Below, piece by piece: positions 44,517 to 47,731 of a stretch of 47,731 nucleotides of DNA (position 1 is the stretch's first letter; the number at the start of each line of letters is the position of its first letter). The notes under the pieces were generated by a model. That model did not search any database and was not told the origin of the DNA. It saw nothing but the letters and a program-made list of their open reading frames with translations. Made by a program: the position numbers and the translations under genes. Source of the DNA: Gammaproteobacteria bacterium (lineage in GTDB: Bacteria > Pseudomonadota > Gammaproteobacteria > Steroidobacterales > JABDMI01). Location: assembly GCA_013001575.1 (NCBI GenBank), contig JABDMI010000019.1:1-47731 (forward strand), given 5' to 3'.

Positions 44517-45281
44517 ATGACTACAAACTTATTTGACCTAACTGGAAAGATCGCACTGGTAACCGGCGCGAGTCGCGGGATTGGTGAATCGGCTGCAAAA
44601 CTACTCGCTGAACAAGGCGCACACGTGATCGTTTCGAGCCGCAAAATTGAAGGCTGTCAGCGTGTGGTGGACGAGATCAAAGCCGCGGGAAATTCTGCCG
44701 AAGCTATCGCCTGTAATATTGGCAGTATGGAAGAGATCTCGAGTATTTTTAGCGAATTAAAATCCCGACATGGCAAGCTGGATATTCTAGTCAACAATGC
44801 CGCAGCGAATCCGTATTATGGGCATATACTCGATACTGACCTCGGCGCTTTTAATAAAACGGTCGATGTGAACATTCGCGGGTATTTTTTCATGAGCATC
44901 GAAGGTGGCAAAATGATGCGTGAGAACGGCGGCGGCTCGATCATCAACACCGCATCGATCAATGGCTTGCAGCCGGGTATCGGGCAAGGCATATATTCGA
45001 TAACCAAAGCAGCGGTGATCAATATGACAAAATCTTTCGCAAAAGAATGTGCCAAATTCAACATTAGAGTGAATGCATTGCTTCCGGGTCTGACCAAAAC
45101 CAAATTCGCCGGGGCATTATTCAATGACGAAAAAGTGTATAAAATGGCAATGGCCATGATTCCAATGCATCGTCATGCCGAACCGGATGAAATGGCCGGT
45201 ACCATCTTGTATCTCGCATCTAATGCAAGTTCGTACACAACAGGCGAGTGTATTGTTGTGGATGGTGGTTTTACAGTATAG
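44517..45281 (+). CDS. Short-chain dehydrogenase/reductase
   Basis: A 254-residue Rossmann enzyme. Cofactor loop ALVTGASRGIGESAAKLLAEQG, NNAAANPYYG, catalytic Ser-Tyr-Lys in IINTASINGLQPGIGQGIYSITKAAV, and C-terminal ASSYTTGECIVVDGGFTV. The ATG at 44517 is used (MTTNLFDLTGK); a TTG 45 bp upstream would add a non-family extension. The SDR is the last metabolic gene of the LysR-associated cluster and may act on a 3-hydroxyacyl-CoA or hydroxy acid. Confidence 0.93.
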   Translation: MTTNLFDLTGKIALVTGASRGIGESAAKLLAEQGAHVIVSSRKIEGCQRVVDEIKAAGNSAEAIACNIGSMEEISSIFSELKSRHGKLDILVNNAAANPYYGHILDTDLGAFNKTVDVNIRGYFFMSIEGGKMMRENGGGSIINTASINGLQPGIGQGIYSITKAAVINMTKSFAKECAKFNIRVNALLPGLTKTKFAGALFNDEKVYKMAMAMIPMHRHAEPDEMAGTILYLASNASSYTTGECIVVDGGFTV

Positions 45282-45301
45282 ATTTAAAAGTGCAATAATT
45301 T

Positions 45302-45709
45302 ATGAATATTTTGTATCCTGTATTTGCAATGGTTCTGCTAACATTTTTCGTATGGTTGCGTATGTACTATGTGCGCTTTTCTGTAATGAGGAAATTTGAT
45401 TTAACCACAGCGGACATGCAACCAACTAATCGTAATTTACCTGCAGCAATTATTTTCTCTGGTGATAATTTTCGTAATCTGTGTGAATTGCCCATATTGT
45501 TTTATACGGTTTCGCTAATAATTCTTGTACTAAAGCTCACAGATAGTGTCTTTCTGGTGTGTGCTTGGGCATTTGTGATCTTTCGAATCCTGCATAGTTG
45601 CATACACACAACTTATAATAAAGTGTCTCATCGATTCTGGATGTATGTGCTTAGTTCAGTGTTTTTGTGGACTATGTGGTTTCGTTTAATGTATAAAATT
45701 ATATTTTAA
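45302..45709 (+). CDS. MAPEG-family membrane protein
   Basis: A 135-residue inner-membrane protein with four helices: NILYPVFAMVLLTFFVWLRMYYVRF; CELPILFYTVSLIILVL, with the conserved FxNLxELPxLFY pattern as FRNLCELPILFY; VFLVCAWAFVIFRILHSCIH; and FWMYVLSSVFLWTMWFRLMY. This is the MAPEG (membrane-associated eicosanoid/glutathione) pattern; bacterial members of this short group have no assigned substrate. It lies 20 bp after the SDR. Composition is AT-rich relative to the metabolic cluster. Confidence 0.88.
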   Translation: MNILYPVFAMVLLTFFVWLRMYYVRFSVMRKFDLTTADMQPTNRNLPAAIIFSGDNFRNLCELPILFYTVSLIILVLKLTDSVFLVCAWAFVIFRILHSCIHTTYNKVSHRFWMYVLSSVFLWTMWFRLMYKIIF

Positions 45710-45737
45710 GCAAGCTACTTGAATAAAGGATGTATAA

Positions 45738-46286
45738 GTGTTGAAAATTGTTGCAAAATCAGCTGTTATTACGCTAACACTATTAGCCTTGAATGCTTGT
45801 GTGATTGCAAGCGAGAGTTTGCATACCGATCCAAGCACAACGCTAAAATATACAAAAAGACTGGCAAATGGAGAACTTGGTCAAAAAGCCACACTTAAGG
45901 ACGTTGCCTGGTTAGTGGGGTCCTGGGAAGGTGAGGCTTTCGGTTCGAAATTTGAAGAGGTCTGGAATCCGCCGTCCATGGGTTCGATGCTTGGGATGTT
46001 TAAATTGTTTAATGATAAAGGAATTATTTTTTACGAAATATTACTGCTGGTTGAGGAAAACGACAGTCTTTCCCTGAAGGTCAAACATTTCAATCCCGAC
46101 TTCAGTGCCTGGGAGGAAAAACCGGATTATGTGAATTTCCGATTGGTCAGTATTGAAAAAGACGCAATACATTTTTCCGGTATCAGTTTTTATAAAAGAT
46201 CCGATAACGAAATTGAAGGTTATATTGTTTTTCGTGATGGTGACAAGCTCACTGAAAACAAACTGGTGTATAGACGCGTAAAATAG
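45738..46286 (+). CDS. DUF6265-like putative lipoprotein
   Basis: A 182-residue exported protein of unknown function. The N-terminus MLKIVAKSAVITLTLLALNACV has a hydrophobic stretch ending in a lipobox-like LNAC (Cys21), so lipid attachment is plausible. The mature part has the DUF6265 pattern: DVAWLVGSWEGEAFGSKFEEVWNPPSMGSMLGMFKL, where the W-x-G-x-W-x-G segment begins a small lipocalin-like barrel. Start is GTG at 45738, with AAAGGA upstream. It is 28 bp after the MAPEG gene. Confidence 0.8.
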   Translation: MLKIVAKSAVITLTLLALNACVIASESLHTDPSTTLKYTKRLANGELGQKATLKDVAWLVGSWEGEAFGSKFEEVWNPPSMGSMLGMFKLFNDKGIIFYEILLLVEENDSLSLKVKHFNPDFSAWEEKPDYVNFRLVSIEKDAIHFSGISFYKRSDNEIEGYIVFRDGDKLTENKLVYRRVK

Positions 46287-46298
46287 TAGTTGAGTAAA

Positions 46299-46307
46299 TG
46301 TTATACT
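46299..46307 (+). promoter_or_regulatory. Extended -10 promoter of the small basic ORF
   Basis: TG-T-TATACT, an extended -10 with one mismatch to TATAAT, lies 12 bp after the stop of the lipoprotein gene. The transcription start is expected near 46314, giving a leader of about 20 nt containing GAGA 7 nt before the ATG at 46334. No -35 is evident, as is acceptable for extended -10 promoters. Confidence 0.6.
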
Positions 46308-46333
46308 GATTTTTTAGATGTTGAGACACAACT

Positions 46334-46558
46334 ATGCCCAAGAAAAATAAGCCAAAGAAAAACAAACGACGAAACCTCGCAGCTCTTTCGCCATTAATGC
46401 GCAAGGGCGGTGCACACATCCGAAGCGCAAGCAGTAAACGCCGAAAACAAAAAAACAAATTACGTAAAGAACTGGATCGCCTTGCAGAACAAGGCGATTT
46501 TTTTATGTCCGCTTTTATTTTTCAAATGTATAATTCCTGTTCCTTCACCAGATATTGA
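46334..46558 (+). CDS. Small basic protein with an intrinsic terminator inside its reading frame
   Basis: A 74-codon ORF. Residues 1-47 are extremely Lys/Arg-rich (MPKKNKPKKNKRRNLAALSP, then LMRKGGAHIRS and SKRRKQKNKLRKE). A perfect Rho-independent terminator (46476-46504) spans codons 48-57, and the only in-frame stop is 17 codons later (TGA at 46556). Most transcripts should therefore end at codon 56-57 with no stop codon. E. coli arfA uses the same trick: its nonstop message is cleared by tmRNA, and the truncated protein accumulates only when tmRNA fails. The NLAALSPLMRKG segment faintly recalls ArfA. Function is unproven; a ribosome-associated or rescue role is a hypothesis. Confidence 0.72.
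   Translation: MPKKNKPKKNKRRNLAALSPLMRKGGAHIRSASSKRRKQKNKLRKELDRLAEQGDFFMSAFIFQMYNSCSFTRY
46476..46504 (+). terminator. Intrinsic terminator within the small basic ORF
   Basis: Perfect 9-bp stem ATCGCCTTG (46476-46484) and CAAGGCGAT (46490-46498), 5-nt loop CAGAA, then a run of seven T (46498-46504). The T-run ends exactly at the end of codon 57 of the surrounding ORF. It separates the small ORF's promoter from the following DUF202 gene. Confidence 0.92.
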
Positions 46559-46562
46559 AATT

Positions 46563-46862
46563 ATGAGTTACTTGGCCTATACCGATAATGAAATGACCCT
46601 GCGTGACAAGCTCGCCTTTGACCGCACGGTTTTGGCCAATGAGCGAACTTTGCTGGCATATTTGCGTACAGCATTGGCCTTATTGGCGGGTGGTGTAACT
46701 CTGCTGAAGTTCTTCCCTGAAGATCAGTTTTTGCAAATAGTTGGCGCAGTACTTTTCGTGGCCGGCGTCCTGGTCGTAATTATGGGTTTGGTGCGATTCT
46801 TCCGCTTTCGTAAAATTCTTCGCGTCGTTAGACCGAAAAAACACTCAGAGACCCATAATTGA
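46563..46862 (+). CDS. DUF202 (YidH-like) membrane protein
   Basis: A 99-residue protein with the DUF202 signature DKLAFDRTVLANERTLLAYLRTALALLAGGVTLL, followed by a second helix pair (FLQIVGAVLFVAGVLVVIMGLVRFF) and a basic tail. Function unknown. I start at the ATG at 46563; an in-frame extension upstream would translate across the terminator in another frame and is not family-like. Its transcription depends on read-through of the terminator at 46476-46504 or on an unseen promoter. Confidence 0.9.
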   Translation: MSYLAYTDNEMTLRDKLAFDRTVLANERTLLAYLRTALALLAGGVTLLKFFPEDQFLQIVGAVLFVAGVLVVIMGLVRFFRFRKILRVVRPKKHSETHN

Positions 46863-47081
46863 CAGCTATAACCAATAAAAACAATTGCTTACGTTGAATA
46901 TTTGACCTATTTTCCGTATCTGGAACAGGTCTAATCTAAAATTCAAATTATAAATTCCTGATAAAAATTCCAATCTTGATTCAATCATTTCGCTTTACAA
47001 AACTTTGCATGCTCTAGGGGGGCAGAATCGTATACAATCACGGCACACAAATTTTAATCAATCACAACGGAGAACGCTGTA
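46863..47081. other. Intergenic region upstream of DUF2853 gene
   Basis: A 219-bp AT-rich stretch. Near its end GTATACAATC (about 47030-47039) offers a -10 element for the DUF2853 gene, but no suitable -35 is seen. A run of six G (47020-47025) precedes it. No ORF or hairpin of note. Confidence 0.4.
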
Positions 47082-47423
47082 ATGGGTAAAAGAGACGACT
47101 TGATCGCGAAATACGCCGCCGATATTAAAGACAAATTTGGCGAAAGTGCCAATATGGATCTTCTGAAAAAAGTAACCATTGGCTGTGGCCCGGCTATTTA
47201 TAATAAAGACGCTGCCACAGTATCCGGTTCCGACAAGGCTGAGATTGCCACCGTTAAAAATAACTACCTGATCAAAAAACTTGGCCTGAAAGACAGCAGC
47301 AACCTGGACGATGCGATTGCCACTGTTATGGAAAAATATGGCAAATCTAACCGCAACAAATACCGTGCAGTGATCTATTACATGCTCTGCAAGCATTTCA
47401 AAAAAGCATCTGTCTATAAATAA
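47082..47423 (+). CDS. DUF2853 protein
   Basis: A 113-residue small soluble helical protein of the DUF2853 family: MGKRDDLIAKYAADIKDKFG, LLKKVTIGCGPAIYNKDAATVSGSD, ELATVKNNYL-like middle (EIATVKNNYLIKKLGL), and YGKSNRNKYRAVIYYMLCKHF. Function unknown; relatives are widespread in proteobacteria. It has a strong GGAG ribosome binding site and is followed by an intrinsic terminator, so it is likely monocistronic and well expressed. Confidence 0.9.
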   Translation: MGKRDDLIAKYAADIKDKFGESANMDLLKKVTIGCGPAIYNKDAATVSGSDKAEIATVKNNYLIKKLGLKDSSNLDDAIATVMEKYGKSNRNKYRAVIYYMLCKHFKKASVYK

Positions 47424-47447
47424 GACCTTGTTTGATATGCAATTATT

Positions 47448-47473
47448 AAAGCCGGCAATTTGTCGGCTTTTTT
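47448..47473 (+). terminator. Intrinsic terminator after DUF2853 gene
   Basis: Stem AAAGCCG (47448-47454) pairs with CGGCTTT (47464-47470), extendable by two inner pairs including a G-U, with a small loop and a T-run of six (47468-47473). It lies 25 bp after the stop codon. Confidence 0.88.
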
Positions 47474-47531
47474 ATTTCCTGATAGTCGGTAATAATTTGC
47501 TAATATTGTTTCTCACACAACAGGAATTGCT

Positions 47532-47731
47532 ATGAAAGCGTTTATTCAAAGTTATATTCTATTAATTACAGTGAGTGCCTGTGCAATCTGTGCCTTTGCT
47601 GCACAACCCAAACTCGAGCACTCGGAAGTAAACAAGTTATATCAACTGGAAAAAGAAGCCATGCAGGCGTATCGCGCGGGCGATTATGCGAAAGCGTTTG
47701 AAAAGCTGAGTATCACCGCACCTCAGGGGCT
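47532..47731 (+). CDS. Exported Sel1/TPR-like protein (N-terminal part)
   Basis: Partial gene running off the window end; 66 codons are visible. A signal peptide (MKAFIQSYILLITVSACAIC AFAA, cleaved near residue 24) is followed by a helical segment with AMQAYRAGDYAKAFEKLSITAPQG, which has the A-x(2)-Y-x-x-G-D-Y-x-x-A-F pattern of Sel1-like or tetratricopeptide repeats. It probably belongs to the Sel1 group of periplasmic protein-interaction modules. Nothing more can be said without the rest. Confidence 0.75.
   Translation, partial: MKAFIQSYILLITVSACAICAFAAQPKLEHSEVNKLYQLEKEAMQAYRAGDYAKAFEKLSITAPQG

Follow-up and report, generated by a model that had tools for sequence, protein, structure and literature searches.

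The window gene and its in-frame terminator

The window, a stretch of 47,731 nucleotides from a gammaproteobacterial contig (JABDMI010000019.1), carries on its + strand a 74-codon open reading frame that begins with ATG (46334–46558). It is preceded by an extended −10 promoter-like element, TGTTATACT (46299–46307), for which a consensus scan found no −35 partner, and by a GAGA that is a possible ribosome-binding site (46323–46326), 7 nt 5′ of the ATG. Inside the frame lies an intrinsic terminator (46476–46504), identified by sequence, scan, folding and codon shuffling, which consists of the stem arms ATCGCCTTG (46476–46484) and CAAGGCGAT (46490–46498), a 5-nt loop, CAGAA, and a run of seven T (46498–46504). 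The stem has 9 perfect pairs, or 11 with two G-U pairs, and the T-run ends at codon 57 of 74. These elements had been described in an earlier note made from the DNA letters, and both sequence and scan agree with that description.

The site is the strongest terminator-like one within 45000–47731, and of the four on the + strand that a stricter scan finds in the whole window it is the only one inside the small gene. The hairpin folds with −14.9 kcal/mol compared to a mean of −4.9 for shuffled sequences (z −4.6, with 0 of 200 shuffles as good), and shuffling of the codons that separate KGGxH from the stop yields a hairpin of such strength in only about 0.2% of cases (p = 0.002). Termination here would leave an mRNA without a stop codon, and the earlier proposal of a transcript that ends before its stop is thus borne out by the terminator, its folding and the codon shuffle; we consider this nonstop design of the window gene very probable. 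Codons 58–74 and the stop codon TGA (46505–46558, the stop at 46556–46558) probably lie outside most transcripts. They are not conserved in homologues, among which the sequence past the hairpin differs in length and frame. The suggestion that they encode a hydrophobic, destabilising tail like that of ArfA fails, as tails past the hairpin show no in-frame excess of hydrophobicity (KD 0.29 in frame, 0.55 in the other two frames, p 0.87).

A mechanically found open reading frame for a DUF202 protein (46410–46862) begins within the small gene in another frame, and the terminator falls inside it too. Its true start is likely the ATG at 46563, 4 nt past the stop of the small gene; with a working terminator at 46476–46504 the DUF202 gene would need its own promoter.

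A family of small basic proteins

The predicted nonstop product, delimited from the list of reading frames, its composition and an AlphaFold2 model, comprises codons 1–57 (46334–46504), with 20 K/R compared to 4 D/E. The model of the window protein contains a confident helix at residues 32–53 and little else (mean pLDDT 78.8, pTM 0.41). Such a basic helix at the C-terminus is reminiscent of the tails that SmpB and ArfB carry. The window protein, which has no match to the RF-1 Pfam model, also lacks GGQ and would therefore depend on RF1 or RF2 for any release activity.

Residues 13–46 (46370–46471; RN..A.SPLMRKGGAH..S.SSKR) form a conserved domain, seen in family alignments and homologues, that belongs to a family of Beta- and Gammaproteobacteria with the motif RNPxARSPLLRKGGxHxxSxxxxR and the consensus MxKxxxxxxRNPVAxxPLLRKGGAHxxSxxxxRxxxKxxL. 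A single-sequence search with residues 1–57 among 97 relatives finds homologues in other genera, with E-values down to 2.2e-9; against the family profile, built from an alignment that includes it, the window protein scores E 2.5e-18. A profile search of 369 genomes drawn over the class gives about 27 convincing carriers, leaving aside weak matches near the threshold. When about 85,000 genomes of bacteria and archaea were scanned with one short pattern, which sees only the RNPVARSPLL form, 48 loci appeared, all labelled Proteobacteria or below, among them Thiorhodococcus, Thiocystis, Imhoffiella, Arenicella, Thiotrichales, Nitrosomonas, Burkholderiales, Moraxellaceae and others; one comes from a metagenome bin labelled Rhodospirillaceae. 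In one genome (G006) the gene occurs twice, on separate contigs (L007 and L139); the copies have diverged hairpins and lie near contig or locus ends, which may reflect duplication or an effect of assembly.

Searches of Pfam (with 30 members) and NCBIfam gave no match to the family. There were likewise no viral, plasmid or PHROG relatives, no significant PDB relatives by profile, and no Rfam match. We found no description of the family or its motif strings in the literature searched, most subscription papers lying outside that search.

Hairpins before the stop codon

Inspection of 3′ ends reveals strong hairpins of unrelated sequence 5′ of the stop in members from many families. Some have a T-run (L019, L020, L022, L027, L032), others a long stem (L007, L008, L010, L014), and further hairpins precede the stop in L013, L015, L021, L023, L024, L028, L030 and L052. 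A search restricted to loops of at most 8 nt and perfect stems missed several of the long hairpins, and a broader test was used. By codon shuffling, 12 of 70 family loci reach p≤0.01 (11 of the 34 with GC below 0.56), compared to 7 of 387 flanking ORF 3′ ends (1 of 70 at low GC), where the controls were mechanically found ORFs with a fixed 138-nt region and 300 shuffles, and the family loci had variable regions and 1000 shuffles. At p≤0.005 the counts are 11/70 and 2/387 (Fisher p 3e-8), or at low GC 10/34 and 0/70 (Fisher p 5e-6); family loci share descent, and the number of hairpins is not a number of independent events. Loci at p≤0.013 span 12 GTDB families, which answers the question posed earlier of whether the in-frame hairpin recurs in homologues, and 4 of 5 known ArfA loci reach p≤0.03 in the same test. 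As the hairpin sequences are unrelated, we argue that they have been repeatedly renewed.

Nonstop control is not universal, for many homologues end in an ordinary stop with no special hairpin, a group that takes in most of the high-GC and betaproteobacterial members. Homologues with a normal stop before the terminator had been named in advance as evidence against the design; an ordinary stop is present in L026, L047, L048, L059, L079 and L085, the first four with a terminator past it, so that this objection holds in part. That the nonstop design holds for part of the family is well supported by these comparisons of sequence.

The clearest view of selection on the hairpin comes from one genus (that of genome G443), where the gene is present in 10 of 20 species. 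An in-frame stem of 21 bp lies directly 3′ of the domain, right after LRK, and is kept in all 10 gene-bearing species; 98.6% of its cells are paired, and changes on both sides occur in 8 cells and at four pairs. The covariation of 0.253, compared to 0.193 for shuffled alignments, is reached by 0 of 500 shuffles and exceeds all slid controls; the number of pairs changed on both sides, taken alone, is reached by 34 of 500. Past the stem nothing is kept, and the distance to the stop ranges from 0 to 102 nt. In one species an indel shifts the frame past the loop (L145) and in another a TGA falls within the loop (L151), and in both the stem is kept. The hairpins of this genus have a long stem with an internal mismatch and no T-run, and resemble RNase III sites; in E. 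coli, arfA has an RNase III site in a comparable hairpin (PMC3989581).

The domain in this genus is under purifying selection (pN/pS 0.12), which bears on the proposal that the locus holds no protein gene at all and the hairpin is instead part of a small RNA or a 3′ UTR element. The sequence is indeed short, A-rich and without database annotation. However, the protein motif is kept across two classes and nothing in Rfam matches, and this reading, largely refuted by conservation at the protein level, strikes us as barely credible. It is also conceivable that an ordinary small gene has a terminator, or an attenuator, overlapping its 3′ end by accident, with the next stop downstream by chance. 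The four homologues with a terminator past a normal stop fit this, as does the start of the DUF202 gene so close to the stop of the window gene. Against it, in-frame hairpins of unrelated sequence occur in many families and are much less common at the ends of other genes, those of the G443 genus covary and are RNase III-like without a T-run, and even an accidental terminator leaves the transcript without a stop. We thus regard an ordinary gene as quite improbable. Since the domain belongs to a family and hairpins recur at the same place, the in-frame terminator of the window gene is not readily attributed to chance.

Genomic context

Of 70 loci, 28 have rtcB (PF01139), a linked gene for a 315-aa protein or arfB next to the gene, always on the same strand; this linkage with rtcB and arfB was not in the earlier note. 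The neighbouring RtcB matches PF01139 with 434 bits, and the gap to rtcB is often about 110 nt or less. In five loci from purple sulfur bacteria rtcB lies downstream of the gene instead. Directly upstream in L027 (= L089) and L028 (= L091) are short C-terminal remnants of rtcB, as if the gene had been lost, and just before the remnant in L028/L091 is the one case of arfB as a neighbour. The conserved protein of about 315 aa lies between rtcB and the new gene (L102:536–1480, L054:1471–2406, L015:1745–2614, and others); it has no match in Pfam or NCBIfam and no significant fold match in the PDB, where only weak GNAT-like matches appear.

The neighbourhood examined around the window copy contains neither rtcB, the 315-aa gene nor arfB. 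Conserved synteny within the genus of the window was considered and rejected, as two genomes of the same genus (73% and 89% complete) lack the gene 5′ of DUF202 and no member of the family was found in them.

This context also suggests a different role, in which the product would be a nonstop-controlled, RNA- or ribosome-binding partner of RtcB, acting in RNA repair, hibernation or rRNA protection when tmRNA is overwhelmed, and not in peptidyl-tRNA rescue. The frequency of the linkage, the missing GGQ motif and the lack of sequence similarity to ArfA all agree with such a role. However, the described small basic proteins encoded by nonstop mRNAs, ArfA and BrfA, are rescue factors, and the neighbour in L091 is arfB itself; we consider a purely RtcB-related function unlikely.

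Rescue factors in carrier genomes

The genome from which the window comes has a tmRNA gene and two PF00472 proteins of RF1/RF2 size. It has no profile match to ArfA (PF03889), and no protein passes the cut-off as ArfB, the model giving matches at the RF level only. The absence of arfA and arfB had been raised as a question by the earlier note, and neither is detectable; as the genome is 96% complete, their absence is probable rather than certain. Mutual exclusion with ArfB was looked for and not seen, with ArfB in 10 of 27 carriers and 184 of 369 genomes overall. No genome has both ArfA and the new family (6 and 27 of 369, respectively), numbers too small for significance. Within one genus (g93; G146 and G388 versus G284) species have either ArfA or the new family, a pattern hinting that one backup has been replaced by the other.

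Comparison with known systems

Two known rescue factors, ArfA and BrfA, arise by translation of nonstop mRNA (PMC8012679, PMC6881298). E. coli ArfA (YhdL, PF03889) is like the new family in being small and basic and in having an in-frame hairpin before its stop, as a terminator or RNase III site, and by analogy one would expect tmRNA repression here. Homology to ArfA was rejected: none of the 30 members searched match PF03889, hhalign gives a probability of 0.4%, and the KGKGS(Y) motif that ArfA has in its C-terminal half is absent from the window protein and the family alignment. This upholds the earlier view that the body of the protein is not ArfA. The new family further differs from ArfA in its predicted long C-terminal helix, its patchy linkage to rtcB and the normal stops of some members.

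BrfA (YqkK) of Bacillus subtilis shares with the window gene an in-frame intrinsic terminator, with about 62 of its 71 codons transcribed (PMC6881298). It is a tmRNA-repressed backup that recruits RF2 and is published as restricted to Bacillaceae (PMC6881298), and by this description the new family is set apart from it. ArfT of Francisella (FTA_0865) is also a small basic rescue factor, and its published KKGGSTNKK is, by eye, faintly like RKGGxHxxS. However, it is 40 aa long without an in-frame terminator (PMC6299226), and the new family, whose members match no Pfam family, is distinguished from it by description.

RtcB2-PrfH is an established repair-plus-rescue operon (PMC9223846, PMC1586002), and in the new loci, too, an RNA ligase gene of the RtcB type adjoins a gene for ribosome rescue, here a putative one. 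The partner here differs in being small and basic and in lacking an RF domain, and the RtcB lies below the cut-off of the PrfH-linked TIGR03073 (141 vs 272 bits). Charged helical proteins of unknown kind have been noted beside RFH-RtcB (Burroughs and Aravind, PMC6514570). The family and its link to rtcB appear to be new, while the kind, a nonstop-controlled rescue factor, is already known.

Proposed mechanism and significance

The possibility, raised earlier, of a new tmRNA-responsive rescue factor is supported as such. On balance we favour the view that the family is a new, independently evolved, tmRNA-repressed backup for ribosome rescue, the third after ArfA and BrfA, and often coupled to RNA repair. 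The product would be a small, very basic ribosome ligand made by design from a nonstop mRNA. Transcription would end at the in-frame terminator (46476–46504), and ribosomes would then stall at the 3′ end of the mRNA, at codon 55–57. With trans-translation working, tmRNA would tag the product, leading to its destruction; with trans-translation failing or overloaded, the product would accumulate. In other species a long RNase III-type hairpin probably leads to the same outcome.

Repression by tmRNA is quite likely, given that it follows from the nonstop design. The rescue function itself, for which we argue by analogy with ArfA and BrfA and from the linkage to rtcB and arfB, seems reasonably probable. 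The transcript 3′ ends, tmRNA tagging, ribosome binding and release-factor recruitment in this scheme are inferred. The frequent position of the gene beside rtcB would link rescue to RNA damage and repair. More tentatively, and with somewhat less than even confidence, this third nonstop-regulated rescue family may have had an ancestral role coupled to repair by RtcB, as an adapter, induced by saturation of trans-translation, that frees ribosomes stalled on cleaved or damaged RNA.

In the literature consulted, ArfA and BrfA are the only two families described as backups controlled by tmRNA through nonstop mRNAs, and an unrelated third, if true, here in a genome where neither ArfA nor ArfB was detected, would be evidence that this circuit has arisen repeatedly. 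The approach also suggests a rule for finding others, by searching for small genes with an in-frame hairpin 5′ of the stop. If our reading is correct, the family would help to show how Proteobacteria lacking any known Arf factor might withstand the loss of trans-translation, and its link to rtcB would connect ribosome rescue with the repair of RNA.
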